Source: a bacterium
GTDB taxonomy: Bacteria > Blakebacterota > Blakebacteria > Blakebacterales > Blakebacteraceae
Direction: 5' to 3'
NCBI GenBank assembly: GCA_025774205.1
Contig: JALGWK010000029.1
Coordinates: 1-25,085 of the forward strand
Length of the DNA stretch: 25,085 nucleotides
The notes beneath the pieces were generated by a model. It saw nothing but the letters and a program-made list of their open reading frames with translations. It did not search any database and was not told where the DNA came from. Below are positions 9,663 to 25,085 of this stretch, piece by piece. Position 1 is the stretch's first letter; the number at the start of each line of letters is the position of its first letter. A program made the position numbers and the translations under genes.

Positions 9663-9694
9663 GTCGGGTAATGTACGAGGATTGCCCGGGAGAA

Positions 9695-11560
9695 TCAATC
9701 AACCCAGAGAAGATAGGAGATGAGGCAACTCAATCTCCTGGAGTGGTCCCTGATGCCGGTCCGATGTTCTTCCAGCAGGCGATCCATTTCCTTTCTGTTC
9801 AGACCATGCTCGGCCGGGTTGCATGAGCTGATGATATCCCCGGCAAAGGAGTGAAGCGGTCCTCTCAACCAGGGCCCGATCGGCACCAGGAACCCTTTCT
9901 TGGGCATGGTCACACATTCGGCCGGCAGCAGCCGGCGCATGGCCTGTCTGATGAGATATTTTGTCTTCAGACCCCTCGTTTTGTATTTCCAGGGGACAGA
10001 GGCCGCAAAATCAAGCATTTCCGTGTCAAGAAAAGGAGCCCGGCACTCAAGGGAGTGGGCCGAGGTCATGATATCCATTGAATAGAGGATGCAATCGGGG
10101 AGGAAGATCCTGAGATCCAGATACATGAGCCGGTTGATCATTTCAGGTTCGGTCAATCCATCCAGATGATGTTCGAAGACATGGAAGGCATCTTCGTGGG
10201 GGATACGTTGCTGCAGTCCGGCCGTGAACAGACGTCGGCGTTCCTCAATCGAGAAGATCTGCTTGAACAGATAATGGGCTCGTTCCGGTCTTTCGTCCGC
10301 TCCGGCAACAAAGGATTTGGCCTTGAAATCGAGTGACATCCTTCGAAATGAGGTGGGCAGCGCTTCCACTGCCGGCCTGATGAGCCTCCGTCGAATCAGC
10401 GCCGGAATGATCCGATATACGGCCGCCATCCGGGCCGCAACCAGGGTCGGATACCCGCCGAACAACTCATCCCCTCCCGCCCCGCTCAATACGACCGTGA
10501 CATCCTCCCTGGCTTTCTGTGACAGGTGTGAGATCGCCATGTTGGTCCAGTCACCATGCGGTTCATCCAGCTGTCTGATAACCTGCGGAAGCAGATCCTG
10601 CAGGTCATCCGGCGTGAGGATGAATTCATGATGATTGGTGGCGAACTGTCGGCTTATCAGGGATGCCATGTCGAGTTCGCTGTAGGAATCTTCATGATAT
10701 CCGACGGAATAGGTATTGATGGTGCTGCCATGCCGCGCCATCATCGCCACGATACTGGCGGAGTCAAGACCACCCGACAGATAGGCGCCAACCGGGACAT
10801 CACTCTGAAGATGGCGCTTCACTGATTGATCGAGCAACCCGGTGAACTCATGCGCACACTCCGCCAGCGATCGGTCCGGTCCCCGGGTGAAATCATAATT
10901 CCAGTAGCGGTTACTCCGGACGGTGCCTGACTCAATGGTCAGATACTCACCCGGCATAACCCGCCGGATGTTCTTATACAGCGTGCGGGGAGCGGTTACA
11001 TAGTAGAACGCGAAGTAATCGTTCAGGGCCTGATGATCCCGTTCGGTCGGAAAGGAGGGGAGAGCGAGGAGCGCTTTCATCTCGGAGGAGAAGAACAGGG
11101 CTCCCCTCCATTCGCTCACGAAGAGGGGTTTCATGCCGGTTCTATCTCTCGCCAGCAGCAGACGCCGGCGCGTCCGATCCCAGATCGCCAGCGCGAACAT
11201 GCCGTTCAGATGCTGAAGGAACCCGTCGTGGTCTTCCTCATACAGATGAACCAGCACCTCGGTATCACACATGGTCCGGAACTGGTGTCCCCGGGTGGTC
11301 AGGTCACGGCGAAGATCCGTATGATTGTAAATCTCCCCGTTGAACACTACCGAGACGGTCCCATCTTCATTGTGCAGAGGCTGGTGGCCACCCTCACTAT
11401 CGATGACTGCCAGTCTCCTGGCGCCCATTCCGAGCGGCCCGTCCACCAGTGTACCGGAATCGTCAGGTCCCCTGTGATGGAGCCTGGAGAGCCCGGTTTC
11501 CAGGAAATCGGGGGGAGCTTCGCTCCCGTCCAGCATGACGTATCCGAATATTCCGCACAT
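9695..11560 (-). CDS. asnB: Glutamine-hydrolysing asparagine synthase family protein
   Basis: The 621-residue protein begins MCGIFGYV, so Cys2 is the glutaminase nucleophile. That requires the start at 11560 rather than at the upstream in-frame ATG at 11584, although no strong ribosome binding site precedes it. Also present are HHRGPDDSG (28-36), FNGEIYNH (73-80), the ATP-PP loop SGGLDS (262-267) and VVLSGAGGDELFGGY. The family transfers glutamine-derived ammonia to an adenylylated carboxylate. Many copies located in glycan clusters amidate sugars or peptidoglycan-like substrates instead of making asparagine. Here it overlaps or abuts the GT2 gene and may belong to the same glycosylation unit. 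The family is certain; the substrate is open. Confidence 0.92.
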   Translation of the reverse strand: MCGIFGYVMLDGSEAPPDFLETGLSRLHHRGPDDSGTLVDGPLGMGARRLAVIDSEGGHQPLHNEDGTVSVVFNGEIYNHTDLRRDLTTRGHQFRTMCDTEVLVHLYEEDHDGFLQHLNGMFALAIWDRTRRRLLLARDRTGMKPLFVSEWRGALFFSSEMKALLALPSFPTERDHQALNDYFAFYYVTAPRTLYKNIRRVMPGEYLTIESGTVRSNRYWNYDFTRGPDRSLAECAHEFTGLLDQSVKRHLQSDVPVGAYLSGGLDSASIVAMMARHGSTINTYSVGYHEDSYSELDMASLISRQFATNHHEFILTPDDLQDLLPQVIRQLDEPHGDWTNMAISHLSQKAREDVTVVLSGAGGDELFGGYPTLVAARMAAVYRIIPALIRRRLIRPAVEALPTSFRRMSLDFKAKSFVAGADERPERAHYLFKQIFSIEERRRLFTAGLQQRIPHEDAFHVFEHHLDGLTEPEMINRLMYLDLRIFLPDCILYSMDIMTSAHSLECRAPFLDTEMLDFAASVPWKYKTRGLKTKYLIRQAMRRLLPAECVTMPKKGFLVPIGPWLRGPLHSFAGDIISSCNPAEHGLNRKEMDRLLEEHRTGIRDHSRRLSCLISYLLWVD

Positions 11561-11593
11561 GGGGATCAGGTGGTCTCCATACAACAGAGAAGA

Positions 11594-11620
11594 CCCCCGC
11601 GACCGTCAGGGTCGCGGGGG
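11594..11620 (-). terminator. Strong hairpin, likely terminator of the 11700-12377 gene
   Basis: An 11-bp perfect GC-rich stem (CCCCCGCGACC/GGTCGCGGGGG) with a 5-base loop lies about 80 bases past the lipoprotein stop and 34 bases before the asnB start. On the minus strand it is followed by TCTTCTCTGTTG, only a weak U-tract. Confidence 0.6.
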
Positions 11621-11699
11621 CCGACGGTACTGCCACAGATCAACAGCGACAGGCGACCGTTCCGGTTCTCCAACGGCCCGGTCGCTTCCCTGGTATTCC

Positions 11700-12377
11700 T
11701 CAGCGCTCCTGGCCGCCGGCGGGGACCAGCGTCTGCAGGATCGGGACCCACCCGCTGTCAGGGTACTTGTTGATGAAGTAGTTCTCGACATAGTCCCTGG
11801 TGTAGGTGGTTGACAGATGGAATTTATCATTATCCATCTTCGCCATTTTGTAATGTACGACCGTGCCTCCGCCCGTGAGGGAGAAGACGTTGTGCTGGAA
11901 GTTGTACACATTGAGACGGGGGCTGGTCTGGAAGTATTCACCCGTGAATGTGTAGCGGTAGTTCGCAGAGGCCGCCATCCATCGCTCGTTCGGCATGCGC
12001 AGCTCATTCCAGATGGTGAAATCACCGCCGCGGTTACCGATCATCCGGATGCCCTTGAGGGTGTACCGTCCCGGCGGCAGGTTCTCGACGCAGAAGTAGC
12101 CGTCATCCTCCGCCCAGATGGTGATGGCCTTCCGGACGTACTCGCCGTCCACTTCCTGGTCGGCCATGATCGAGATCTCCTGGCCGGAGGTATAGGCCTC
12201 CTGCATACCGCGGATGACTTCGACCGTACTCGAGCCGATGATCAGGATCGCGTCCTCGCCCGCGGGGTCGGTCAGACTGGTGGAGTAACCGCCGCCGCAG
12301 CTCGACAACATGACGATCAGGCCGAGGAAGAGCAGAACTCTGGCTCCCAACGGAGTCTTCGAAATGAATGCACGCAT
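11700..12377 (-). CDS. Lipoprotein of unknown function
   Basis: The start at 12377 (ATG, with GAGG about six bases upstream) gives 225 residues; the frame is open further upstream, but that extension would precede the signal peptide. The N-terminus is a lipoprotein signal ending in LSSC (Cys27) followed by Gly-Gly-Gly. The mature part is rich in beta-type sequence, with the segment GYFCVENLPPGRYTLKGIRM resembling carboxypeptidase-regulatory or prealbumin-like folds, and later aromatic-rich strands (YRYTFTGEYFQ). I do not recognise a named family. It is divergent from the TPR/GWxTD gene at 12579 with a 201-bp shared upstream region, and separated from asnB by a hairpin. An envelope role, perhaps with the neighbouring surface locus, is inference. 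Confidence 0.75.
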   Translation of the reverse strand: MRAFISKTPLGARVLLFLGLIVMLSSCGGGYSTSLTDPAGEDAILIIGSSTVEVIRGMQEAYTSGQEISIMADQEVDGEYVRKAITIWAEDDGYFCVENLPPGRYTLKGIRMIGNRGGDFTIWNELRMPNERWMAASANYRYTFTGEYFQTSPRLNVYNFQHNVFSLTGGGTVVHYKMAKMDNDKFHLSTTYTRDYVENYFINKYPDSGWVPILQTLVPAGGQER

Positions 12378-12578
12378 CTGGGTCCTCACTTGTCGGGTTC
12401 TTCCCTTGTTGTTGGGTCCTGGATATATGATATCAAAGCTTGCGTAACTGACCCACTGGAACCGTAAACAGTTTAGCATTATTTTGCGTCGAAACAGTGG
12501 GGTATTCTGCATTTTAATGGTGTACAGTTGAGGTCAGTGAAGTCTTCGAGGTCAAGTGGAGCAATGAGGAGTTCCTTC
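12378..12578. promoter_or_regulatory. Divergent intergenic region, presumed promoters both ways
   Basis: This 201-bp region separates divergently transcribed genes and is more AT-rich than its surroundings, with stretches such as CATATATCC (minus strand) and GCATTATTTTGCG (plus strand). Its position implies a promoter in each direction, but I see no convincing -35/-10 pair and no clear operator. Confidence 0.4.
12567..12571 (+). promoter_or_regulatory. Ribosome binding site choosing the start at 12579
   Basis: AGGAG lies seven bases before the ATG at 12579. The earlier in-frame ATG at 12564 has GGAG only two bases away, so 12579, which also gives a clean signal peptide, is preferred. Confidence 0.55.
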
Positions 12579-14378
12579 ATGCATCAACCTGTCGCGTCGG
12601 GTCCCCGTGCGGGATCGCTGTTCGCCCTGCTGGCCGTCCTGGCGGCTCTCTCCCTGCCGGTCGGAAACGCTCAAGCCCAGGATGTCGATTCCCTCTACCG
12701 GTTCGGGCTCGATCAGCTTGAACAGGGGGATACCGAGAACGCCATCAACACCTTCCGAAAGGTTCTGGAACTCAACCCGAATTACGCCCTGGCCCACTCG
12801 AGTCTCGGCTATATCTACATGCTTCGCGGGAACAGCGACCTGGCCCGGGCCTCCTTCGAGCGCGCGATCGATCTGGATATCAGGCTGGCCGCGGCCCATA
12901 ACGGGCGGGGAATGGTGCTCGCCCGGGAGGACCGGATGCGGTCGGAGGCCCTCGTGTCGTTCCGTGAGGCACTCGACCTCGACCCTGAATACCTGGACGC
13001 GCGCTACAATCTCGGCGTGACCCTGGCGGATATGGAGGATTTCCGGGGCGCCCGCCAGGCCTTTGCGGCACTCCTGCAGACCGATCCCGAATACAGTGAC
13101 GTCCACTATCGGCTCGGTGTGATCGCCAGCAATGAGGGAGATTACGATACCGCGATGGACGAGTTCCGTGACCAGTACCGCCTGGCGCCGAACCATCGGG
13201 AGAACCGGTTGGAACTCGGCCGTCTCTACTTCCGGCAGGAGGAGTACGACGACGCCGAACAGATGCTGCTGCCGATGGTCCAGCAGTTCCCGGACTATAC
13301 GCCGGCGATGCTCCTGCTCGCCGACGTCTACCTGGCGGTCGAGGACTACACCCGGGCCAATCAGCTCTACCTCCTCTCCTACAAGGATTTCGATGACGAG
13401 GAGACCGCCGATCGGCTCTGGCAGGATGTGGTGGATATCGCCGAAGACAAAGAACGCCGGGAATACCAGGAAACGGCGCTCGAGGACATGCCCGACTTCT
13501 TCCGGCGGTTCTGGCGCAAGCGGGACCGCGACCCCACCACTCCTGACACCAACGAGCGGATGGTCGAACACTACAGTCGGCTCCGACACGCTCGCATGTA
13601 TTTCCACAGCCCGACCACGATCGGGGAATACGACGACCGGGGACGAATCTGGATCAGGTATGGGCCACCCGACGAGCAGGCAGGATACGGCACCGCCGAC
13701 TCCGAGACCAGGCCCAGCGACACCTGGCTCTACTGGAGGGGCCTTAAGGAGCGTATCATCGTCCACTTCGTGGATCGGGGCATCGGGTACTTCCAGATCG
13801 TCGAGAGCCTGATGGAGGCCGCCGAGATGACGCCACTCACCCTCCTCCCCTCCATCGAGGAGGGGGAGCTCACCTCCACCACCTCGGAGATGTCAATCGA
13901 TCGGCTCCCGATCAATGCCTTCCGGGAGCGCGCCATCATCGATCCCCGGTACGACCGGATGGCCGACGAGATGGAAGAGATCATCCGGAACGCCCAGGGT
14001 CAGGGCGGCGGCGTCGATGGCGTCGACACCTATCTCCAGAACCTCCAGCGGATGATGGAGACGGAACGGATGGACAACCTGCAGGACATGGCGACCCTCG
14101 AATCGACGACCCATTACGTCAGCATCGAGCCGGAAAACCCGCTCCCCTTCAGCTTCTACACGGCCGCCTTCAAGGATATCCAGGGACGTACCCGGATCGA
14201 GGTCTACTACGGCATCCCGACCAGCGAACTGGAACTGGAGCGATACGGTGAAGGTCAGAAGGCGAGGGTCAACCTCGGGGTGGCCATGTTCGACGAGAAC
14301 TGGAACGAGATCGACCGGACCAACGAGATCCGGGAGTACCTCTCCTCCCAATTGGTGGAGCAGCAGGCGGGCGCCTAA
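12579..14378 (+). CDS. Exported TPR protein with GWxTD-like domain, N-terminal part of frameshifted gene
   Basis: The protein begins with a signal peptide (cleavage near AQAQ-D, residues 31-35), then about six TPR repeats (37-270, e.g. LELNPNYALAHSSLGYIYML). A GWxTD-like domain follows (about 305-415: FFRRFWRKRDRDPTTPDTNE, RGRIWIRYGPPDE, DTWLYW). The diagnostic GWxTD pentad itself has become GEYDD here. A further beta-rich region follows and the frame stops at 14376-14378 after EQQAGA. The downstream frame continues the same protein, so a single base is missing in the G/C-rich run at about 14366-14376; the full protein would be about 796 residues. GWxTD domains have no established function and occur in FCB-type bacteria, usually with surface or secretion genes. 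It is the only plus-strand gene in the window. Confidence 0.85.
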   Translation: MHQPVASGPRAGSLFALLAVLAALSLPVGNAQAQDVDSLYRFGLDQLEQGDTENAINTFRKVLELNPNYALAHSSLGYIYMLRGNSDLARASFERAIDLDIRLAAAHNGRGMVLAREDRMRSEALVSFREALDLDPEYLDARYNLGVTLADMEDFRGARQAFAALLQTDPEYSDVHYRLGVIASNEGDYDTAMDEFRDQYRLAPNHRENRLELGRLYFRQEEYDDAEQMLLPMVQQFPDYTPAMLLLADVYLAVEDYTRANQLYLLSYKDFDDEETADRLWQDVVDIAEDKERREYQETALEDMPDFFRRFWRKRDRDPTTPDTNERMVEHYSRLRHARMYFHSPTTIGEYDDRGRIWIRYGPPDEQAGYGTADSETRPSDTWLYWRGLKERIIVHFVDRGIGYFQIVESLMEAAEMTPLTLLPSIEEGELTSTTSEMSIDRLPINAFRERAIIDPRYDRMADEMEEIIRNAQGQGGGVDGVDTYLQNLQRMMETERMDNLQDMATLESTTHYVSIEPENPLPFSFYTAAFKDIQGRTRIEVYYGIPTSELELERYGEGQKARVNLGVAMFDENWNEIDRTNEIREYLSSQLVEQQAGA

Positions 14379-14968
14379 GGGCGATCCCCGGGGTCTACAA
14401 TTTCGCCATCAGCCTGACCGACATCAATTCGGGCCGGAGCGGTGTCGTGCGGGACAGTCTGAGGGTCGAGGAGTTCACCGGTCGGGCGCTCACCATCAGC
14501 GACATCGAGATGGCGGGATCAATCGGCACCCGGCGTGGAGGACGATTCTACCGCGACGGGGTTGAGATCATCCCGATGCCCACGCGGACCTATACCACCG
14601 AGCAGCCGATCTTCATCTACTACGAGCTGTACAACCTCTCGAAGGACGAGTTCGGTACCACCGCCTTCCAGGTGAGGTACGGCATCAAGCCGTCGGCCCA
14701 AGCCCGTCGCCGGGGCGTCCTCTCGTCGGCCTTCCGCGGACTCGGCCGTCTGGTCGGGATCGGCAAACCGGTCGAGGTCGGGCTCGAACTCGATATCGAA
14801 TACGGGATCCGGATGCAGGAGAACCGCTGGCTGGAACTGGAGTTCGCCGATCCCAAACCGGGCCTCTACCAGATCACGCTCATAGTGAAGGATATCAACA
14901 ACGGGACCGAGTACGAGCGGATCCAGGAATTCATGGTGACCCCGCCCCCTCAGACCGAGCGGAACTGA
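14378..14968 (+). CDS. C-terminal part of the frameshifted TPR/GWxTD gene
   Basis: Reading in the +2 frame relative to the upstream piece gives AIPGVYNFAISLTDINSG, then SLRVEEFTGRALTISDIEMA and about 150 more residues, ending in VTPPPQTERN. The phrases LTISDIE and YELYNLSKDE match counterparts in the neighbouring GWxTD protein (LTISDIEF, YAEVYGLSEP at 15061-16545), so this is the beta-sandwich module that accompanies GWxTD domains. It has no ribosome binding site or signal peptide of its own. An internal GTG at 14447 could only start a fragment. I read it as the continuation of the gene at 12579, separated by a one-base frameshift. Confidence 0.78.
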   Translation, partial: RAIPGVYNFAISLTDINSGRSGVVRDSLRVEEFTGRALTISDIEMAGSIGTRRGGRFYRDGVEIIPMPTRTYTTEQPIFIYYELYNLSKDEFGTTAFQVRYGIKPSAQARRRGVLSSAFRGLGRLVGIGKPVEVGLELDIEYGIRMQENRWLELEFADPKPGLYQITLIVKDINNGTEYERIQEFMVTPPPQTERN

Positions 14969-15010
14969 GCAGAGTGGCAGGCACTGGTCCGACTCTCTGA
15001 ATGGAATCCG

Positions 15011-15039
15011 GCTGATCCGGGAAGGACTCCCGGATCAGC
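15011..15039. terminator. Bidirectional terminator hairpin between convergent genes
   Basis: GCTGATCCGGGA (15011-15022) pairs perfectly with TCCCGGATCAGC (15028-15039) around a 5-base loop. It lies 42 bases after the plus-strand stop at 14968 and 21 bases after the minus-strand stop at 15061, so it can serve both transcripts. Flanking T-tracts are weak. Confidence 0.65.
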
Positions 15040-15060
15040 TGTCTCGCGCGATACTGTTTC

Positions 15061-16545
15061 CTACCGGGGCGGTATCCCCAGCTCTTCCCGCCACTGAGGG
15101 TTCTGCCGTTCGCCCGTCAAATCGGAATGGAGCAGAATGTAGGAGCCGAAACCGCCGCTGGTGTCGGCGAAGATGAACATCTTGCGGCCCTGCTCAGCCA
15201 GCCGGTAATAGATCCACTCCACCCACGGCTTGTTGCCTTCCATCATGTGTGGTTCGACCTCGTCGGGCTGGCCGTACATGATCCAGATCCGTCCCTGATC
15301 GGTTTTCCAGCCTTCCGGCTGCGTTGGAGTGGTGAAGTTGTCATTGGCGTGGTCGAACCGCTGAAGGATCGCTTCCCGGTACTCATTCTCGGGCGTGCCC
15401 GGGGTAGTGTCCCGCGCAGTCCAGAAATTGATCAGCCAGGTCCGCTTCCCCTCCGGATCGAGCTGGTCGAATTCATCAAGTTCAGCCGATGTTGCCAGCC
15501 AGGTAATCTCGTTCCTGAGTCGTATGACCGCCTCGGCCGTCATGTTGATCGTGCTCAACTCATCGGCCTCCACAGCCTGGATCTCGCTGTATATCTGGAA
15601 CGGCTTCCGGCGGACAGCCCGCTGACCGGTCGCGTCGTCGGTGATTTCCACGTACAGGTGGTAATCACCGCTCGGGATGATGAGCGGATTGAGGTTCCCG
15701 ATCGCGACCATGTCGTTCGAGGACCTGATCGGTTTCGTGATCCGGTCCTCGAATACATGCCGGTGATCGACGTTCAGTCCCTCGATGTAGACCGTCCGGG
15801 TGTAGGTGTTCTGCTCTCCAGCAGGGCCTATCGGCTCCGACAGGCCGTACACCTCGGCATAGAACGACATGGGATGGAAGTTGAGGCCGAACAGCCGGAG
15901 GGGGTTGGGGATGACCTGCAGTCCGTTCTTGACGAACCTGTTCGGGGATGCCGCCGGTCCGAGGCGCACGGTGAATTCGATGTCACTGATGGTAAGCTGG
16001 GAGGAGGTGTAATCGGGTATCACCACCGTCCGGCGATCCACCCCGATTCTGGTGTCATCCTGCAGCTGACTGTTCTTGTCGGTGATGGTGGTGATGAATC
16101 GATACGTGCCCGGCGGAAGGTAGAGACGATAGATATCGAAGATGGTCTGGGGCTCATCTACCTCGGCCTGGTTCCCGGTCTGGAATACCGTCGGCCAGCT
16201 GTCCCATTTGACCCGGTCGCCGATCTCGGTCTCCACCACGGTCTCGAGCATCCAGAGGGCGGACCAGGTATCCGGCGTGTCGGGGAGCGGGATGAAGGTC
16301 AGGTTCTGCCGTTCGAAGGCATAATAAATCTCAATATAGGTCAGAGAGGGATCCTGGAGGTTGCGGTAGCTCACCACATCCACGTAGATCTGGACATCGC
16401 CGGTGAAGCTCTGGGAGATGAGCCATTCCTGCTGTGCGTTCGCCGTCCCACTGCCGCCCGTCAACAGGATGACGGCTGTCAGGAGAGCCGTCAGACCATA
16501 CCGGCTGCCCCTCCGTGAACGATTCTGTGGACAACGTGAAGACAT
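15061..16545 (-). CDS. Exported GWxTD-domain protein (canonical motif GWKTD)
   Basis: From the ATG at 16545 the protein is 494 residues, with a signal peptide (basic stretch, LTALLTAVILLTGG, cleavage near ANAQ). Two beta-sandwich regions follow, with LTISDIEFTVRLG in the middle. The C-terminal GWxTD domain contains INFWTARDTTPGTPENEYR, EGWKTDQGRIWIMYGQPDE (GWKTD about 412-416) and EWIYYRL. The open frame extends up to an ATG at 16614 that overlaps the upstream stop as ATGA, but this would push the signal peptide more than 20 residues inward. GAGGA about ten bases before 16545 supports the inner start. It is probably translated with the upstream paralogue (16611-18026). Function is unknown; the context suggests surface or secretion machinery. 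Confidence 0.88.
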   Translation of the reverse strand: MSSRCPQNRSRRGSRYGLTALLTAVILLTGGSGTANAQQEWLISQSFTGDVQIYVDVVSYRNLQDPSLTYIEIYYAFERQNLTFIPLPDTPDTWSALWMLETVVETEIGDRVKWDSWPTVFQTGNQAEVDEPQTIFDIYRLYLPPGTYRFITTITDKNSQLQDDTRIGVDRRTVVIPDYTSSQLTISDIEFTVRLGPAASPNRFVKNGLQVIPNPLRLFGLNFHPMSFYAEVYGLSEPIGPAGEQNTYTRTVYIEGLNVDHRHVFEDRITKPIRSSNDMVAIGNLNPLIIPSGDYHLYVEITDDATGQRAVRRKPFQIYSEIQAVEADELSTINMTAEAVIRLRNEITWLATSAELDEFDQLDPEGKRTWLINFWTARDTTPGTPENEYREAILQRFDHANDNFTTPTQPEGWKTDQGRIWIMYGQPDEVEPHMMEGNKPWVEWIYYRLAEQGRKMFIFADTSGGFGSYILLHSDLTGERQNPQWREELGIPPR

Positions 16546-16610
16546 GTTAATCCGGTCCTCTCTGATGATGCTGTTAACCGATGTTGAAGCCTGCCGATTC
16601 ATCAATTCCA

Positions 16611-18026
16611 TCAACGTTCCGGCGGGATCTGCATCCGGACCCTCTGCCGGTACTCATCCCGGTTCATCAGCTTGAAATCACCGAAACCGGAATCATCTTC
16701 GAAGAGAAGCTGCAGCCTCTCACTGTTATACACCCAGACCTGCGCGGGATTCGATCCTCTGGCGAATTCCGAACGTTCGACAAAGTCGGGCAGACCCAGG
16801 GTCAGGTAGACTTCGCCGCGATCGGTCGCCCACCCATCCAGCTGCGGAATGCTGAACATCTCGTTGGCATAGGCCACCCGGCGGTAGTACTCGAGCATGA
16901 CCTCATTCCGTTTCGTTCCCGGAGACGGATCACGGCTGGCCCAGAACTGCCTGAAGAAGGCGAGCCGTCGTTCTTCGGGAGCGCTGCGCAGCAGTCGAAG
17001 CTCCCGCTCGGAGGCGATGTATCGGAGCTGGTTGACCGCCTTCTCGTAGTCCTCGAATGCCAGTGTCAGGTACGACTCCAGGACCGTGAACTCCCGCTCA
17101 TTGGACACCGTCGTTCCCGATCCCATGTCGGTGATATCGATCTTGAGCTGGTATTTTCCGGGGGTGAGATCCTGGATGTTCATCTCGACCGAGTTGAAGG
17201 CTGAGGAGCCCGGTTTGTCATGCCGGCGCATGAAATAGATCGCCGTCTCACCGGTGTCATTCAGCACGTAGAACTCCACCCGGTAGAGCCGGTCCTGCTC
17301 GGTCCGACGCACCGGATTGAAACCGTAGACCTCGTAGTAGGCCAGCACCGAGGGCGCGAAGTTGGCGTAGATGCCGCGGGTGTTCGGGATGTAAGCGTGA
17401 CCCTGCCGGACGAAGAGCTGCGATCCGGCGTGATCCACGACCGCGCCGGCCGGCAACTGGGGATCGGACTCTCCCAGGTAATCGGCCAGAAGGATATCGG
17501 ACATGCCCAGGCGACTCTCGGAGTAGCGGGGCACCTCGATCTCGATACTGATCTCCTTCGGGTCGCTCCTGAACTGGTCATTCAGCGACACTTCCAGGTC
17601 GTAGGTCCCCGGATCGACGATAAAGGAGAACCGCTGGATCCGGATGATCTCGTCGGAAAGCGTCTCCTCGAACACCGGCGTAGTTGTCTGCTCCCGGGTT
17701 GTCTCATCGAAGACCTGTTCACCGCGGGGACCGACCAGGATCAGGGTCAGATCGTATTCCGCCCTGAAGGCTCCATCCGCCCGGGTGAATAAAAGCTGCT
17801 CGTAGGCGATCGAGATGTAGACTTCGACCAGGGTCCTGGCTGACGCCTGATCGCTCAGAAAGGTAATGACGCTGGCATGGAAATCGGGTCCGGTGATCTG
17901 GGGAGCGACCACCTCCTGGGCCTGGACCGGAGTCGGACCGGGGAGCCCCGCCGAGACCAGCAGGAGCGCGAAGGGAAGCGGCAATAAAAAGTGTCTCAAC
18001 AGGTTACTGGATTCCAGTCGGGCCAC
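16611..18026 (-). CDS. Exported GWxTD-domain protein (motif GWATD)
   Basis: The 471-residue protein has an N-terminal signal peptide (LLPLPFALLLVSAGLPG, cleavage near VQAQ), beta-rich regions that include SRLGMSDILLADYLG and YYEVYGFNPV, and a C-terminal GWxTD domain: RRLAFFRQFWASRDPSPGTK, DGWATDRGEVYLTLGLPDF (GWATD at 398-402) and VWVYNSERLQLLFED. It shares its architecture with the downstream gene, so the two are tandem paralogues; the stop and the possible downstream ATG overlap as ATGA. The start is GTG at 18026 with AGGAAA nine bases upstream. An extended -10 promoter lies about 130 bases upstream, so the pair may have its own transcript, separate from the PorV-like gene. The role is not established. 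Confidence 0.9.
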   Translation of the reverse strand: MARLESSNLLRHFLLPLPFALLLVSAGLPGPTPVQAQEVVAPQITGPDFHASVITFLSDQASARTLVEVYISIAYEQLLFTRADGAFRAEYDLTLILVGPRGEQVFDETTREQTTTPVFEETLSDEIIRIQRFSFIVDPGTYDLEVSLNDQFRSDPKEISIEIEVPRYSESRLGMSDILLADYLGESDPQLPAGAVVDHAGSQLFVRQGHAYIPNTRGIYANFAPSVLAYYEVYGFNPVRRTEQDRLYRVEFYVLNDTGETAIYFMRRHDKPGSSAFNSVEMNIQDLTPGKYQLKIDITDMGSGTTVSNEREFTVLESYLTLAFEDYEKAVNQLRYIASERELRLLRSAPEERRLAFFRQFWASRDPSPGTKRNEVMLEYYRRVAYANEMFSIPQLDGWATDRGEVYLTLGLPDFVERSEFARGSNPAQVWVYNSERLQLLFEDDSGFGDFKLMNRDEYRQRVRMQIPPER

Positions 18027-18158
18027 GCGTACGATTTCCTTTCACGTTGTCGAGGTCCTGTCTCAGGGCGCACCTCTACCGGCGGATCCACCCCGAAGTA
18101 ACCGTTCGACGCCGCCGGGACGGGTAACGTTCACACGACGGACACACACAATCAACGA

Positions 18159-18167
18159 ATTATAACA
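18159..18167 (-). promoter_or_regulatory. Extended -10 promoter for the GWxTD pair
   Basis: TGTTATAAT on the minus strand (18167-18159) matches the extended -10 pattern TGnTATAAT. The best -35 at 17-base spacing (GTTCTT) is poor. It lies directly after the terminator of the PorV-like gene and would give a leader of about 125 bases before the GTG at 18026. Confidence 0.45.
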
Positions 18168-18177
18168 GGAATACCCA

Positions 18178-18230
18178 GAAAAAGAACGCCCGCCACCCTC
18201 GTCGGCGAGAGGCCGTCGAAGACAGCGGGC
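18178..18230 (-). terminator. Rho-independent terminator after the PorV-like gene
   Basis: On the minus strand GCCCGC (18230-18225) pairs with GCGGGC (18193-18188), enclosing a smaller hairpin (CCTC/GAGG), and is followed by GTTCTTTTTC. A second hairpin with two 5-bp stem segments and one mismatch lies closer to the stop, at 18254-18278 (GGGCG-A-CGCTC/GAGCG-C-CGCCC). Together they should end the transcript coming from the receptor, cargo and porV genes. Confidence 0.6.
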
Positions 18231-18302
18231 ATTCACGTCCTCCTGCGGTCGGCGGGCGACGCTCGGAGAGCGCCGCCCTCAACCGCTACCTGATTTCTAC
18301 GC

Positions 18303-19406
18303 CTAGAAGCCCAGGCTGAAGAAGAACTGGGTGACCGACCCCAGGTCGCCGTAGTCCGCCATTCCGAAGTCGAACCGGAGAGCGTAACCGGCGAATGTGG
18401 TCTTCACCCCCGCACCGTAGCCAATCTCCATGAGCTCACGGGGCTTGCCCTGCAGACGGGCGCCCAGCTGCTCAGAGACCTTACCACGCATCCGGTAGCC
18501 AGCGCGCAGAAACACTGTCTCGTTCCACGCGTACTCGGCTGAGAAAGCCAGCCGGGCTATCTGATCGTTCGGGTCTTCGATGTCTACGTGTGCGGTGAGG
18601 CGGTTCATCTCGTTCGCCATGAACGTGCTGATACCACCCACCAGGTCGATGGCCAGCCCCATACGGAACATCAGGGGCAGGTCATACTTCAGCGTCGCCA
18701 TCTCTGCGTTCGGGTTCAGACCAGTGTAGTCCTCACTCGGGTCGTCATCGATCTGACGGTTGAACGCGAAGTCCGGACCGCTCATTTGCATCTTCGGACC
18801 CATGTTCAGGATCGCCATACCGAGCCGAGTGCCCAGCAGACCGGTGTTGAACGTCGAGCCGAGATCTATGGCTATGGCGTTCGCTGTCGCACGCTGAATT
18901 TTCTCCTGGATCCACTTGACGGTGAAACCCAGCGCGAACCGATCGGTCAGGACCTGCGAGATCGTAACCCCCATCGAGAGGTTGTTCACGCTGAAGTACT
19001 CACCCTCACCTGTCGGCTCTTCAACCGTCGTTACCTCCATCTCACCTGAATCGAGTCCGATGTAGTGGATCCCGATCCGGGTGTTCAGACCCAGAGGTAT
19101 GACGATACCGGTGAAGGAGTGGGTTATTCCCGCGTACAGGTCAGCCCTGTTCATCGCGAGGGTCATTCTGTCGATCTTCGAGATGCCGGCCGGGTTCCAG
19201 TAGAGAGCGGTGGCGTCGTCATTGGTCGCGAGACCAGTGCCTGCCAACGCGAGACTCCTGGCGCCAATCGGCAGCTTCAGGAAGTTAGCGGCGGATGTTC
19301 CCACCTTCGACAGATCTGTTGGAGGCTTGTCGCCTTGCTGCTGACCGTATGCAACCGACGCGGTCACCAGGAGCAGCGCACAAGCAATTGTGATTACTTT
19401 ACGCAT
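18303..19406 (-). CDS. PorV/PorQ-family outer membrane protein
   Basis: The 367-residue protein starts at ATG 19406 with AGGAGG eight bases upstream (19415-19420), then a signal peptide (KVITIACALLLVTASVAYG). The conserved PorV/PorQ start of the mature region is present: ANFLKLPIGARSLALAGTG, then NDDATALYWNPAGIS. Repeated amphipathic strands run to a C-terminal Phe (FFFSLGF), as in outer-membrane barrels. PorV in Bacteroidota is the barrel that receives cargo carrying a type IX C-terminal domain and passes it to the attachment complex; the broader family also sits in organisms without full T9SS. The gene begins 31 bp after the stop of a protein with a sorting-like C-terminus, which supports a cargo-carrier relation. 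Confidence 0.88.
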   Translation of the reverse strand: MRKVITIACALLLVTASVAYGQQQGDKPPTDLSKVGTSAANFLKLPIGARSLALAGTGLATNDDATALYWNPAGISKIDRMTLAMNRADLYAGITHSFTGIVIPLGLNTRIGIHYIGLDSGEMEVTTVEEPTGEGEYFSVNNLSMGVTISQVLTDRFALGFTVKWIQEKIQRATANAIAIDLGSTFNTGLLGTRLGMAILNMGPKMQMSGPDFAFNRQIDDDPSEDYTGLNPNAEMATLKYDLPLMFRMGLAIDLVGGISTFMANEMNRLTAHVDIEDPNDQIARLAFSAEYAWNETVFLRAGYRMRGKVSEQLGARLQGKPRELMEIGYGAGVKTTFAGYALRFDFGMADYGDLGSVTQFFFSLGF

Positions 19407-19437
19407 GATTGGTTCCTCCTTGGGACTCAGTGGTTGC

Positions 19438-22400
19438 CTATCGGATGATGGCAAACTTGCCAACCTTGGTCTTTCCGTCGTCCGTCTTCAAGACGTAGAC
19501 GTACAGTCCATAGGCTGCCTCCGTGAATTCATACGTCCAGATGTTCCAGTCGACCGTGCCGACCCGGTTGGAGTTGTACCCTCTCCCGCCGGCAACGGCT
19601 GTGGCGTCACCATGGTGATCAAGGATCGCCACCAGTTCCCCTGAGACCGTGTAGATCTGGATCTCGCTGTTGATGGGAACGTTGGTGAACTGGATCTTCC
19701 GCCGGTTGTTGCTCAGGTCCCATTCTGAGTAAATGTAGTACGGGTTCGGAACGACCTTGACGTCATCGAGATCGATCAGTGAATCCTCGATGGCTGCGCC
19801 CGTGGTGCTGAACTCGTACTGCAATCCGGAACCCATCGGGTGAGTGAAACCCCAGGTGAGCGTCGTACCGTGCAGATCCCGCCAGGTCAATCCGGTGTCC
19901 ATCCCGGGGATCGTCGACCACATGTGATCGAGGTTCGAACCACTCCAGTCCGACTTGGTGCCGTCCACGAGGTCAGTGTACGCCGTGTCGGGTGTCGCGC
20001 CGGAGTAGTCGCTGGCAAGCACCGACGTGTAGTGCCGGTTGGCTCCCAGCGGATCGTCGTCGATATCCCAGGCCAGGTTGGCGCCCTTGGCCGACTGACG
20101 CGTGTAGGCGATGTTCACCTGCCGGTCAGTCGTTCCGTCCACATCCCAGGCGGTACCGGGGAACATATTGTACCCCACGTAATCGTAGCCACCCGTGCGG
20201 TTGTAGACGTAAGCCATCTGTGTCGCCGTGGTATCGAACCTGATCTCGATCGTGGTGTACCGATTCGCCATGTCTGACATCGAGCCGTGACTCAGCTCGC
20301 TGTTCATGAACCAGTCGTCACCATACAGCTGCTCATACCCGCCGTAAGGTACATAAACCGTCGGGAGTGTGTAGTCCAACAGGTCATATACATCAGAAAC
20401 GGCATTGAACATGGTATTCGCAACGACCTGGAAACCATCCACGATCGGCAGCAGGCCGGAACCGTAGCCAGTATCATCAGGCAGCAGTGCCGTGTAGAGC
20501 ACCTGTGCCGTCGGAGTCAGCCGCTCCAGTGTGATACCAATTACTCCGGTCTGACTGTCGAGACCGTAGGCGCCACTGTCGGCCGTGGTGATCCGGTACG
20601 TACCGTCCATCGTCCCGGCGTCGACCATCACGTTGACGGACACAGTGCCGTCAGTCGGATAGGCGCCGCTGACTGTCGGGGTCAGGCTCGAGGTTGCGCC
20701 GCCATCCACCAGACCATCGGTGAAACCGTTCGGCCGCGAACCTGATACCACCGCGATTACAGCCGGCGCGTTCGGGTTGCTCCCGATCGGCGACTGCAGT
20801 GACGGCAGCAGCTGGACCAATCCCGTGGCCGGGTCGAATTCACCCTGGTCATAGGCAGTGATGGCGTACCAGTACTCGATACCATCCAGCGCCTCCTCGT
20901 CGACAAACGAACTCACCAGACCAGTGTCATCACCGAGGTAGGAGTAACTGGTACCATCCTTGCCGGTGATGCCGTCGGCAAGGTCCCACTGGCGATAGGG
21001 TACCCAGTTGGCGAATGCGCCCTGCACATCGCTGATCACATTGCCCCAGGTGGAACCCCGGTCCATAGACCGGAAGAGCCTGATACCCTCGGCGTCCTCG
21101 ACACCCGAGGAGGGGTCGGGGGTGGTAAGCGTGCCGGCCAGGTTCCACGTCAGGGTGATGTTACCCGATGGTGCGTAGTAGATCGGGTAGGCGTGAATCC
21201 GCGGGTCGTACTCCCGACCGCCCGGACCGGCGGTGATGCCGTTGGCAGAAAAATCGCCCGGCGCCGGCGGGGCTGCTGGGCCCGCGTACTTGATGTTATA
21301 CGTGTGCTTGGCGACTGCTGCCGCGTCTCTGAACTGGCCCCATGTCAGACCACCCACGAACGCCACGACGAAGTCGAAGCTCGCGCCTGAAGCCATCGAG
21401 AACGGCCCCGAAGCGGTGTAGTAGAAGTGGTCAACACTGGCCAGAGTCCCATTGTACAACTCGTATTCGACCTTGGTCTGCTTCAAGATCGGCTGACCGG
21501 TACCACTCTGTCCGGTCTTCCAGATGTTCGAGGCATAATTGGAGTCCATCACCGAGATGTCACCGGAGACCGCGCCGTAGAGAGCCGCCTCATCCCTCAG
21601 CACCCGGTCACCCCAGTCGATCAGGGCCACCCGCGTCAGGATGTTGGCCGGACTGAAGACGGTCGAGTCCTCAATCGGCATGCCGGCGACAGAACTCGTG
21701 AGGTAGTTCGCACCCGGGTCGTCCGGGTCGTAGTTGTCCTCACGGAAACTGCCCGTCGGGCTCTCCAGCACCATCTGACCCACGAAGGCGAGCTGCTCAC
21801 TCGTCGACGGGCGAGTGTGCTTGCCCGTCCCTGGGTCGAAGTTGGACGCCACCGAGAAGAGTAGCTGGTCCTCCTCGAAGTAATCGAGTGTAGCATCTGC
21901 GAAGTCATTGCTGCTCGGGCTGCCCTTGTCGCAGATGTGTCCGATGTACACACCGGTGTAGTTGTTGCTCGATGTGTTCGTGAACTCATACTGCATGTAG
22001 ACAACGTTCAGCGCCGAGTAAGCGATCGCGCGCTTCTTGACTTCAATACCCAGCGGGATCGACTGGCCGTCATTTTCCCGGTCGGCGTACGCGTCATCGA
22101 AGATGCAGTACGTGTTCCGGTCACCGGCCCTCTCCCACTTGAACCACGTGTCGGTCCCGGCCCAGACCTCTTCAACACTCTCAGGTGCGGGCCAGCCGGA
22201 CGTCGGCCAGGTGGCAGGCAGGTCGCTCGTCGCGTAGATCGGGTAACTTCCCTCCAGCTGTGGTGGATTCGAGAACTGAATCCCGCGGGCCCCGTCCTTT
22301 GCCTCCCAGTCCATCTTGGAGAGGCTGTGGAAGTCCGATGTTTCGTGGACCATTCCAGTCGGGTGACTAGTGCCCACGACACCTTCCACAGCGAAAGCGA

Positions 22401-22728
22401 CGGTGGAAGTGAACCAGTACGACCTCTGGGTACCATCTGCGTTGGGGAAGTTGCCGCGGCCGGCAGAGAAAATCCGGCCGAGCTGGATCCCCATGTTGTA
22501 GGTGTGAACTTTAAGCTGGGACAGATCCATAACCGACACGGCGCGATCGGTTGCGTCCGCGTCACGGGCAAGCGCTGTCGGACCCATATCCTCCAGGGTC
22601 ATCTTCAGCTGCGCCCGTTCTTCAGCCCATCCGGGCTGGCCCTGTGCCCAGCTCGCAGATGCCATGCAGGTCAGCAGCATGAAGGCCACCGGCCAGCGCA
22701 GCATTTTCAGCAAGCGTGGATAATCCAT
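19438..22728 (-). CDS. Large secreted protein with C-terminal sorting-type (T9SS A-like) domain
   Basis: From ATG 22728 (GGAG eight bases upstream) the protein is 1096 residues: signal peptide (WPVAFMLLTCMASASWA), a long N-terminal region rich in aromatic and Asp residues, a fibronectin-like stretch in the middle (GNITLTWNLAG, then GIRLFRSMDRGSTW), and a C-terminal module of about 90 residues. That module (VKVVPNPYYIYSEWDLSNN, KIQFTNVPINSEIQIYTVSG, YGLYVYVLKTDDGKTKVGKF) has the pattern of the type A secretion-system C-terminal sorting domain. It should be exported and presented at the surface through the PorV-like protein encoded next. No enzyme motif was recognised; a structural or binding role alongside the TonB receptor is inference. 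An upstream GTG at 22749 is an alternative start. Confidence 0.86.
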   Translation of the reverse strand: MDYPRLLKMLRWPVAFMLLTCMASASWAQGQPGWAEERAQLKMTLEDMGPTALARDADATDRAVSVMDLSQLKVHTYNMGIQLGRIFSAGRGNFPNADGTQRSYWFTSTVAFAVEGVVGTSHPTGMVHETSDFHSLSKMDWEAKDGARGIQFSNPPQLEGSYPIYATSDLPATWPTSGWPAPESVEEVWAGTDTWFKWERAGDRNTYCIFDDAYADRENDGQSIPLGIEVKKRAIAYSALNVVYMQYEFTNTSSNNYTGVYIGHICDKGSPSSNDFADATLDYFEEDQLLFSVASNFDPGTGKHTRPSTSEQLAFVGQMVLESPTGSFREDNYDPDDPGANYLTSSVAGMPIEDSTVFSPANILTRVALIDWGDRVLRDEAALYGAVSGDISVMDSNYASNIWKTGQSGTGQPILKQTKVEYELYNGTLASVDHFYYTASGPFSMASGASFDFVVAFVGGLTWGQFRDAAAVAKHTYNIKYAGPAAPPAPGDFSANGITAGPGGREYDPRIHAYPIYYAPSGNITLTWNLAGTLTTPDPSSGVEDAEGIRLFRSMDRGSTWGNVISDVQGAFANWVPYRQWDLADGITGKDGTSYSYLGDDTGLVSSFVDEEALDGIEYWYAITAYDQGEFDPATGLVQLLPSLQSPIGSNPNAPAVIAVVSGSRPNGFTDGLVDGGATSSLTPTVSGAYPTDGTVSVNVMVDAGTMDGTYRITTADSGAYGLDSQTGVIGITLERLTPTAQVLYTALLPDDTGYGSGLLPIVDGFQVVANTMFNAVSDVYDLLDYTLPTVYVPYGGYEQLYGDDWFMNSELSHGSMSDMANRYTTIEIRFDTTATQMAYVYNRTGGYDYVGYNMFPGTAWDVDGTTDRQVNIAYTRQSAKGANLAWDIDDDPLGANRHYTSVLASDYSGATPDTAYTDLVDGTKSDWSGSNLDHMWSTIPGMDTGLTWRDLHGTTLTWGFTHPMGSGLQYEFSTTGAAIEDSLIDLDDVKVVPNPYYIYSEWDLSNNRRKIQFTNVPINSEIQIYTVSGELVAILDHHGDATAVAGGRGYNSNRVGTVDWNIWTYEFTEAAYGLYVYVLKTDDGKTKVGKFAIIR

Positions 22729-22745
22729 ATTGTCCGCTCCTTCAC

Positions 22746-22898
22746 TCACGTTCCGAAATGCGTCGTAATCGACGTCAGGTAGCGGGATGATCCGGAATTC
22801 GGCACGGAGTCGGCCGCTGTCGCAGCCGGGCGGCCGTCGGAGGGCTGCGCCAACAGCCCCCCGATGCCTCTGTCCATGCGTTTCCGAAGTGATCCCAT
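22746..22898 (-). CDS. Possible 50-residue small ORF
   Basis: An ATG at 22898, eight bases after AGGAG, opens a 50-residue frame that begins MGSLRKRMDRGIGGLL and ends at a TGA (22748-22746) overlapping the alternative GTG start of the large secreted protein. No homology is recognised and the product has no signal or membrane segment. It could be a leader peptide coupled to the next gene, or chance. The good ribosome binding site and the overlap with the downstream start are its only support. Confidence 0.25.
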   Translation of the reverse strand: MGSLRKRMDRGIGGLLAQPSDGRPAATAADSVPNSGSSRYLTSITTHFGT

Positions 22899-23002
22899 TT
22901 CTTTGCTCTCCTGCATCTCTTCTCTTCAGACTCTAGAAGAAGACGCGGATCCCGATGTCGATCGACCGCGGCCTGGAGAAGTACCAGGAACGGTCGTAGC
23001 TC

Positions 23003-24133
23003 TCACTGTAACTTCTTCGCGTTAAAGAGATTCCGAATGTCAGCGAAGATGCTGTACCGCATCCCGAACGACTCGAAGTCACGGTAGAACTTCGCCGACC
23101 ACGAGAACGTCCATGGACGACGACCGGAGTTGGGCTCGAGCGTCTTCTCCTTGGTGGTCGGAGTGTAGGGCCTGCCCGCCGCGGCCGAGTAAAGCAGGCT
23201 CGCGTTGAACCTCTCGAAGGGGCGGATACCGAAGATCTCCGGACCCACGCCCTGCGGGATGCTGATACTGACGGACGAGCTCAAACGGTGCGGCTGGTCC
23301 CAACCGAGCACCCGGGGGCGCTTCGGGCTGGTCTCCAGCTCGTGACCACCGCGGTACCCGGCCCACGGGTCGTCGCGGTTCGACTGCGTCGTCATGTACG
23401 AGTAGTTCACCCGGGTGCTCCAGAAGTCGCTGTACCGCTTGATCAGCGACATGTCGATACCCTTCGATGACGAGTAGTCGTAGTTGAGGAACACGGTGTA
23501 GTCATACGGGTTCGAGACACCCTGGAAGAACGCCGGGATCCGCTCGGAACCTACCATGTTGGAAGTGTCCTTCGCGTACATGGTCAGCTCAAGAGCGTAG
23601 ATCTCGGTGAACTGGTGCTTGTAACCGAACTCGTACGAAACCGTCTTCTCGTTCTCCATGTTCGGGTTGCCGATCAGCGGTACGGAGTCCTCCAGTGTGC
23701 CCTGGATGTACAGGTTACGGTAGATCGGGTTCTGGAAGAAGTGGCCATAGTTGAAGTACATGACCGAACGTTCGGTGATCGGGTGCGAGATACCTATACG
23801 CGGTGAGAACTGGCTGCGAAGCTCACCGGTCTTGATCGGCGCGGTCTCCGGATCGGACGGGTCAATTACGAGTTCACCGTCTGCGTCGATCGGGTTCCGC
23901 GGGTCGATCCAGTAGGGGATCTCGCCGGCGTTGGCTGCATCGTACCTCAGACCCAGGTTCAGGATGATGAAGTCGTACTCAACCTTGTCCTGGATGTAGA
24001 GACCCAGCTCCCACGGAGTACGACGGTACTGCGTGATGTAGGGCGGGGTCAGGTAGAGCAGCTGCACGTCGTAGGTGTCCATCGTCGGGACGTTGTAGAT
24101 CGCGCCCGTCTTCACCTGGTGGTGCGTGGTCAC
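23003..24133 (-). CDS. TonB-dependent receptor, C-terminal barrel part (frameshifted)
   Basis: This frame encodes outer-membrane beta-barrel strands of a TonB-dependent receptor: LGLYIQDKVEYDFIILNLGLRYD, then QFSPRIGISHPITERSVMYF and YGHFFQNPIYRNLY, NPNMENEKTVSYEFGYKHQF, and ADIRNLFNAKK close to the end. It ends at 23003-23005, but the next frame continues SESYDRSWYFSRPRSIDIGI and finishes in RVFF with a stop at 22933-22935, the expected C-terminal aromatic strand. One extra base near 23006-23018 explains this. Upstream it joins the middle part by another one-base break near 24146-24156. The whole gene would end at 22933 and import a siderophore, glycan or peptide across the outer membrane; the ligand is not deducible. 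Confidence 0.85.
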   Translation of the reverse strand: MTTHHQVKTGAIYNVPTMDTYDVQLLYLTPPYITQYRRTPWELGLYIQDKVEYDFIILNLGLRYDAANAGEIPYWIDPRNPIDADGELVIDPSDPETAPIKTGELRSQFSPRIGISHPITERSVMYFNYGHFFQNPIYRNLYIQGTLEDSVPLIGNPNMENEKTVSYEFGYKHQFTEIYALELTMYAKDTSNMVGSERIPAFFQGVSNPYDYTVFLNYDYSSSKGIDMSLIKRYSDFWSTRVNYSYMTTQSNRDDPWAGYRGGHELETSPKRPRVLGWDQPHRLSSSVSISIPQGVGPEIFGIRPFERFNASLLYSAAAGRPYTPTTKEKTLEPNSGRRPWTFSWSAKFYRDFESFGMRYSIFADIRNLFNAKKLQ

Positions 24134-24768
24134 CTGGCTGGTGATATCTGGTAGTCGTTCGAGTAGTAACGGTCAGACCCGTCGCTACCAAATCCAGCGC
24201 CGCCGATCGGGAAGTAGCCGAACGTCCTGGCCAGTGAGTCACCCGAGGCGTAAGGCATCGGTTCCAGCATGACCTGGGTCATGGCGTCACCGAAGTGCCA
24301 GAGAGTGTCCGGCGTGCCGGTGGCCGGGGGGGCCGGGTAGAGGTGCTCATATCGCGGCACATAGCCCCGGTCGTTGACCCAGCGGTTCACCCGCATCGCG
24401 CGGTTGTAGTCATAATACGACCCGCGGATGCTGTAGAACGTGGACTGACCGAGCTGGTGCGTCCAGACGAACGCCATCCGCTGGTTCTTCATGTCAACGA
24501 GGTTCTTCTCGTTGTGGAAGTCGGTCAGACCTGTGCTGGAGATGATGTTCTTGCCAGCACCACCAGTGTACCACGGATCCGATGCGTAGATATCGTTGTT
24601 GCTCCACTCATCGGTACCCCAGACGCTGTTGTCCTGGATCTCACTCGGAATCCCCCAGAACATCGAATACCGCCAGGCGTTCGTGAAGGGGGTCCGGTCG
24701 GAACCGTTCAACTGACCCGAGAAGGTCATCTTCATGCTCGGGGTCAGCTTGTAGGTCAGGTTGGCCAT
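24130..24768 (-). CDS. TonB-dependent receptor, middle barrel part (frameshifted both ends)
   Basis: About 212 residues of barrel sequence starting MANLTYKLTPSMKMTFSGQ, with FNNSWNG-type strands before it in another frame and YYSNDYQ at its end. Alternating hydrophobic strands and long loops (e.g. VWTHQLGQSTFYSIRGSYYD) fit the receptor barrel. It has no ribosome binding site or signal peptide of its own. Its upstream join is a 5-bp tandem duplication (TGGAA twice, 24773-24782) and its downstream join a missing base near 24146-24156. Removing these gives one continuous receptor with the flanking segments. Confidence 0.82.
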   Translation of the reverse strand: MANLTYKLTPSMKMTFSGQLNGSDRTPFTNAWRYSMFWGIPSEIQDNSVWGTDEWSNNDIYASDPWYTGGAGKNIISSTGLTDFHNEKNLVDMKNQRMAFVWTHQLGQSTFYSIRGSYYDYNRAMRVNRWVNDRGYVPRYEHLYPAPPATGTPDTLWHFGDAMTQVMLEPMPYASGDSLARTFGYFPIGGAGFGSDGSDRYYSNDYQISPAR

Positions 24769-25085
24769 ACCGTTCCATTCCAGCTGTTGTTGAACCCGTA
24801 CCCCAACCAGCCCGAGTAGATGTCGATCGGGTAAATACGCCAGTCGTACCCACTACCCGTTTCACGCTGGAGGTACGGATTGTCTTCGACGTAGTCGAAG
24901 TCCGCCCAGTCATCCGGCATGTCGTAGTAGTTGATGTCCGCGCGACGGGTCTCGTCAATAGGGTTGACGTACAGATCGTACGTGTAGTCATCCTTGTTGA
25001 CGGTGTAGTCACGCGAACCGCTGACTGAACCCGACAGGAAGAACGACGCCTTGCTGATCATCGGCACCGGACCACCGAGGTAGCC
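24756..25085 (-). CDS. TonB-dependent receptor, upstream part (open at right edge)
   Basis: The frame runs in from the right edge, reading GYLGGPVPMISKASFFLSGS and then Tyr/Asp-rich loops to WLGYGFNNSWNG, where it derails and stops at 24756-24758. GYLGGPVP followed by a FFLSG strand is typical of the first barrel strands after the plug in carboxypeptidase-regulatory-like TonB receptors. The plug, any N-terminal regulatory domain and the signal peptide lie beyond the window. The ATG at 25067 is internal, not a start. Confidence 0.78.
   Translation of the reverse strand, partial: GYLGGPVPMISKASFFLSGSVSGSRDYTVNKDDYTYDLYVNPIDETRRADINYYDMPDDWADFDYVEDNPYLQRETGSGYDWRIYPIDIYSGWLGYGFNNSWNGTVWPT

Follow-up and report, generated by a model that had tools for sequence, protein, structure and literature searches.

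What brings a TonB-dependent receptor, a large secreted protein whose C-terminal domain (CTD) resembles those of the type IX secretion system (T9SS), a PorV-family outer-membrane barrel, and three GWxTD proteins together in one bacterial locus? This question is raised by contig JALGWK010000029.1 (C56; 25,085 bp), which was analysed as a whole and is referred to here as the window, from the draft genome of an uncultured bacterium of the family Blakebacteraceae (G000; 3.09 Mb, 527 contigs, 86% complete). The genes in question span 12.5-25 kb of the window, and GWxTD is a protein family with no assigned function. Our analysis showed that the same gene order recurs in 12 families, and we cautiously favour a reading in which a widespread cassette, here present as one of its copies, directs the assembly of a stable surface complex in a type IX-like manner.

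Gene order of the cassette across families

Five of the six genes lie on the reverse strand. The TonB-dependent receptor (23003-25085) comes first and is followed by the secreted protein, hereafter the cargo (19438-22728), which has 1096 residues counted from its ATG, has relatives that are full-length by profile, and carries the T9SS-like CTD in its last ~110 residues. After a gap of 31 bp between the cargo stop and the next ATG comes the PorV-family barrel (18303-19406; NF033709, 153 bits against a cut-off of 90), and then two tandem GWxTD genes, protein 2 (16611-18026; TIGR04514, 106 bits) and protein 1 (15061-16614; 88.5 bits, probably starting from an ATG near 16545), each combining a signal peptide, beta domains and a C-terminal GWxTD domain. 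The sixth gene, on the forward strand and converging on the others, encodes a TPR-GWxTD protein (N-terminal part at 12528-14378) in which a TPR array with Pfam matches precedes the GWxTD domain (TIGR04514, 63 bits, cut-off 28). All three GWxTD proteins score above the TIGR04514 and PF20094 family cut-offs, and these three, the cargo, and the barrel have N-termini that resemble type I signal peptides when judged by eye. The original prediction for this DNA had named all of these parts, and we found each where it had been placed, with the 1096 residues and the 31-bp gap exact.

To compare neighbourhoods, we made profiles of the window proteins and applied them to stretches of other genomes; a contig scan with one protein, which would have less reach than one with an alignment, found only the sister genome, G001. 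The same-strand order receptor, cargo, PorV, GWxTD was found in the window genus (including G001) and in G047 (two copies), G027, G004, G192, G068, G101, G123, G137, G446, G283, and G334. The last three represent families within the GTDB phylum of the Bacteroidota-like genome G205, and G334 has two tandem GWxTD genes like the window. In G004 and G192, from two families, one extra gene stands between PorV and GWxTD (L064:9047-11398 and L084:2067-4391), encoding a PIG-L deacetylase-domain protein of ~780 residues. Partial copies were also found: G003 retains only PorV and GWxTD, next to the end of its contig, in G174 the stretch taken covers cargo, PorV, and GWxTD but no receptor, and in G209 the contig stops inside the cargo. 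Nine more stretches, picked by cargo alone (L085 to L090, L092, L093, and L097), hold the triad of receptor, cargo, and PorV without GWxTD.

These adjacencies are far more frequent than chance would give. In a 60-genome set, PorV was followed by GWxTD 7 times against 0.55 expected, and 7 of the 20 loci picked by cargo alone had GWxTD against 0.07 expected; as the counts take in relatives of the window, they are not wholly independent. Coordinates that already hinted at the pattern led to the choice of loci L078 to L083, which lengthen the list rather than forming part of a random sample. The original prediction had staked itself on a neighbourhood conserved among relatives, and conservation was found over many lineages; we consider it almost certain that the cassette is real.

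The cargo and its C-terminal domain

The original prediction described the cargo C-terminus as T9SS type A-like, a description that had to be revised. Against the type A model TIGR04183, the window CTD scored 15.9 bits, under the 23-bit cut-off, and four other cassette CTDs scored singly gave 20.6 to 27.6 bits, while canonical CTDs of the same and other genomes reached 31 to 56 bits. Canonical tails read NYPNPFN, whereas those of the cassette read VPNPY ... FxNLP ... SGxYIYHV ... GK. When compared with the PDB, the cassette CTD profile matched only PorU (8e-6) and PorZ (4e-5), while the canonical profile matched CTDs of cleaved Flavobacterium johnsoniae cargo and FlgD first, PorU at an E value of only 0.8, and PorZ not at all. 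A match of the cassette CTD to the NCBIfam PorU model was considered as a distinctive feature and dropped, as it is shared by canonical CTDs; the two kinds are told apart only by their PorZ scores and by the comparison with the PDB. Judged by these profile comparisons, the cargo CTD is a subclass other than canonical type A. Many cassette CTDs outside the window genus have ~12 additional residues at their end, the last of which is F or Y (L061, L064, L085, L087, L089, L090, L092, L093, L097, L106, L110, and L117). The whole cargo matched no Pfam or NCBIfam family, the SusD family included, and its sequence profile had no convincing relative among solved structures.

The resemblance to PorU and PorZ matters because of how these two proteins are kept at the cell surface. 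Their CTDs remain uncleaved (PMC11285876), with PorU held by PorV and PorZ by PorQ (PMC5562754), and the match of the cassette CTD to proteins that keep their CTDs on barrels is the main basis of the anchoring model that we propose below. As for the barrel encoded behind the cargo, its family profile matches the PorV of the SprA-PorV structure 6h3i (E 3e-19), and the window protein scored 55.9, 78.5, and 60.6 bits against the PorV, PorQ, and PorV2 equivalog models (cut-offs 250, 220, and 325 bits), so that by these cut-offs it is classed as a PorV/PorQ family member and not as PorV, PorQ, or PorV2 proper. Cargo and PorV are neighbours one-to-one in nearly every cargo locus, and we believe it likely that the two are a cognate pair.

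Secretion machinery encoded in the host genome

The SprA translocon was identified in G000 as two pieces, each on its own contig (TIGR04189; 351 bits summed on C22, 276 bits on C63), together with eight type A-like CTD tails and seven PorV-family matches. One of these matches (222 bits) lies on C18 and is followed by the start of a secreted metalloprotease-like protein with an HEFGH motif, the two together occupying L126:1343-3436. The number of PorV-family genes bears on a simpler explanation, in which PorV is the ordinary shuttle for all CTD proteins and the cargo, an ordinary type A substrate, adjoins it by accident. In F. johnsoniae the type A CTDs do all use one PorV (PMC12618676), and the family's match to the PorV of the SprA complex would fit such a role. 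However, seven PorV-family members in the genome, the pairing of cargo and PorV in nearly all cargo loci, and a cargo CTD that is not canonical speak against this explanation, and we regard it as improbable.

Two other T9SS components were searched for with negative results. In G000 to G003, four incomplete genomes of the window's family, the model for the PorU sortase matched CTD tails only, while true PorU was found in ten other genomes with SprA. The PorM/GldM motor model (TIGR03517) had no match in 60 genomes, SprA-encoding ones included, where a distant motor could escape it, and it scored 394 bits in the control genome G205; the SprA-encoding genomes G091, G147, and G102 also lacked a GldM match. 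As GldM was not found despite the presence of SprA, the motor in these lineages may be distant in sequence or different.

GWxTD proteins occur together with SprA

The original prediction linked GWxTD proteins to a PorV-dependent system, and we found that the family does co-distribute with the T9SS translocon. In a sample of 212 genomes spread across Bacteria, GWxTD was present in 53, about a quarter, and SprA scored above its cut-off in 52; both were found in 48, GWxTD only in 5, SprA only in 4, and neither in 155 (phi 0.89, with deep shared ancestry uncorrected). Collapsing repeated families gave counts of 42, 4, 4, and 155. The suggestion of a system outside classical Bacteroidota was not supported, as 173 of 296 genomes in the GTDB phylum of G205 have GWxTD, and the cassette itself occurs in three sampled families there. 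Bacteroidota as delimited by GTDB thus do include carriers of the family, even though G205 (SprA 2705 bits) and other listed members of its own family are without it.

The GWxTD proteins themselves offered few leads. Their sequence profile had no convincing relative among solved structures, no OmpA domain was found in them, and their codon pattern had no match in a viral sequence collection. A Foldseek search with the first structure model returned generic tandem Ig/FN3-like sandwiches with a TM-score below 0.2 on the query and was not used. In a tree of 62 GWxTD domains, the deep branches were weak; PorV-linked members clustered (9 changes against 17.7 with shuffled labels), yet did not form a single clade. 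Protein 2 of the window grouped, at weak support, with a set in which many GWxTD genes adjoin rimO, while the position of protein 1, among rows holding most of the PorV-linked members outside one set, was not resolved. That many genomes have one of each suggests two old GWxTD types.

The word GWxTD was not found in the literature searched, which left out most subscription journals, and within the same literature no paper joined 'PorV family', TonB-dependent receptor, and T9SS. Nor does it contain a description of how GWxTD is linked to PorV, cargo, and SprA.

A proposed model for assembly of a surface complex

From the parts, their recurring order, the co-distribution, the CTD subclass, and the presence of SprA, all of which the analysis showed, we propose a model of five steps. 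The cargo, which has a signal peptide, would pass the inner membrane via Sec and would then pass the outer membrane via the SprA encoded in the genome. Its CTD would be captured by the PorV-family barrel encoded directly behind it, which would serve as a lasting anchor. The CTD would stay uncleaved because it is of the PorU/PorZ kind and because no PorU was found in the window's family, and from these sequence features we think that the cargo is probably anchored in uncleaved form. In the fourth step, the TonB receptor would cooperate with the anchored cargo as SusC does with SusD; this is suggested by gene linkage only, and we hold the chances for and against a receptor-cargo complex to be evenly balanced. 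In the last and weakest step, the GWxTD proteins would be periplasmic accessories for the barrels or for barrel assembly, in a position like that of PorE beside the PorP-type barrels of Bacteroidota. That GWxTD acts on the cassette complex is a tentative proposal, to which we give somewhat less than even weight.

Several known systems resemble the proposed one in part. In Porphyromonas gingivalis, PorU:PorV and PorZ:PorQ are likewise CTD-bearing surface proteins that sit on their own PorV-family barrels with the CTD kept (PMC5562754, PMC11285876), an arrangement that we propose for the cassette from its genes. Those pairs form a sortase complex that serves all cargo, whereas the cassette cargo has no assigned function and a linked TonB receptor, and its family has no PorU that we could find. 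A gene for a cargo with a type B CTD is followed directly downstream by a gene for a dedicated PorP/SprF barrel and sometimes by one for PorE (PMC12618676, PMC9143113). The cassette shares the sequence of a cargo gene and then its own barrel gene, with a periplasmic partner in several operons, but it has a type A-like CTD, a PorV-family barrel, and GWxTD in the place of PorE. As in SusCD systems, a TonB receptor with a CarboxypepD-like domain is encoded beside a large surface protein, although the partner here is a CTD protein with its own barrel and not a SusD lipoprotein.

The SusCD likeness leads to a reading in which the cassette serves primarily for nutrient uptake, the cargo being a SusD-like capture protein for the receptor and PorV and GWxTD being assembly helpers. 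This is compatible with the model above and adds uptake to it. The receptor is the first gene and, like SusC-type receptors, has CarboxypepD-like and plug domains, and its linkage to the cargo is strict, but the cargo sequence shows no relation to SusD or to any solved protein, and no substrate-specific gene was seen to recur in the cassette neighbourhoods. We consider a primary role in uptake possible but less likely than not.

Several findings weigh against the proposed surface complex. The bit scores behind the CTD subclass match are modest, and the absence of PorU in the window's family rests on four incomplete genomes. Structure models of GWxTD proteins from the window and from L077 were poor (predicted local distance difference test scores of 44 and 52), so that no contact was predictable. 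GWxTD occurs without a SprA match at E 1e-20 in G036, G181, G085, and G204, and SprA occurs without GWxTD in G205, G091, G147, and G102. In one of these genomes without a SprA match, L076 (G036:C193) holds GWxTD-like and TPR-GWxTD-like genes near a TonB receptor. A terminator-like hairpin divides PorV from GWxTD in the window genus and in several other lineages, and a second GWxTD type adjoins rimO in eleven loci. Five of these (L102, L103, L105, L107, and L116) have a gene for the BamA-like Omp85 a short way downstream and further genes for envelope or lipid functions in the vicinity, as in the block at L105:5034-12780, which comprises cdsA-like, rimO, GWxTD, pfkB, Omp85, ubiA, and rnhB genes.

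The hairpin lies directly 3' of porV on the reverse strand (18184-18234) and has 22 pairs and a U-run (fold z-score -5.4), and it is kept in the sister genome with paired changes; a second hairpin between porV and GWxTD lies at ~18245-18286. In a general terminator scan, shuffled sequences yielded more sites than the real ones, so single matches weigh little, and an Rfam search gave no match. A hairpin and U-run between PorV and GWxTD are also present in L062, L063, L106, and L117 and, less clearly, in L110. From the hairpin to the first possible start codon there are 150 to 175 bases in the window genus, a spacing that leaves enough room for a promoter, and ~20 bases in L062, which would hardly fit one, so that in L062 transcription probably reads through at a lower level. 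The hairpin after porV weakens a simple operon interpretation of GWxTD in the window genus.

The rimO loci, the genomes with GWxTD and no detected SprA, and the hairpin favour a reading in which GWxTD proteins have a general part in outer-membrane biogenesis, of beta-barrels or lipids, across the wider Bacteroidota-like superphylum, acting outside the cassette complex and standing beside envelope genes through simultaneous production. On the other hand, GWxTD directly behind PorV in many families and its close tracking of SprA over the 212 genomes speak against this reading, and we view a general role as a serious possibility that falls clearly short of even. A bolder extension of the surface-complex model is that GWxTD, often as two old types, forms an unrecognised core of type IX-like export or outer-membrane assembly where SprA lacks a detectable GldM and, here, a sortase, with the PorV-linked type serving lasting complexes of receptor, cargo, and barrel. 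This is speculative, and we think it rather unlikely. The role of GWxTD can now be tested, given its conserved association with genes for a PorV barrel and a CTD cargo and its co-distribution with SprA. The cassette further suggests that pairing a cargo with its own dedicated barrel, as known from type B cargo and from PorU and PorZ, is a common way to build TonB-receptor surface complexes far from the two model organisms.

Frame breaks and neighbouring genes

Two genes that the original prediction had identified, the TonB receptor and the TPR-GWxTD gene, are present in the window but broken in frame, and the receptor also runs off the contig at its 5' end. The receptor consists of three overlapping frame pieces on the reverse strand (23003-24133, 24130-24768, and 24756-25085), each of which matches receptor frames of related loci, with PF00593 scoring 86 bits on the C-terminal piece. 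The receptor of the sister genome has a frame change as well, elsewhere in the gene than in the window. The TPR-GWxTD frame is broken at ~14378 (14370-14400), where about ten residues are absent relative to the sister genome, and its C-terminal part continues in another frame (14384-14968, forward strand), which aligns to the C-terminal region of the intact homologue. That homologue is a single protein of 815 residues (L077) with the order TPR, GWxTD, C-terminal region; L077 and the cassette locus L057 lie on one contig of the sister genome (JALGVQ010000087.1, metagenome-assembled genome Meg19_1012_Bin_119). The breaks in both genes look like assembly errors.

A further assembly error is possible elsewhere in the window, where the frame of an ABC-transporter ATPase (1030-1623) overlaps the next frame (1577-2887) and seems truncated. 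A DUF2723-type protein, recognised by eye within 6100-12512, and a lipoprotein-like gene at 11700-12512 are found near the TPR-GWxTD gene in G001 and G002 as well.

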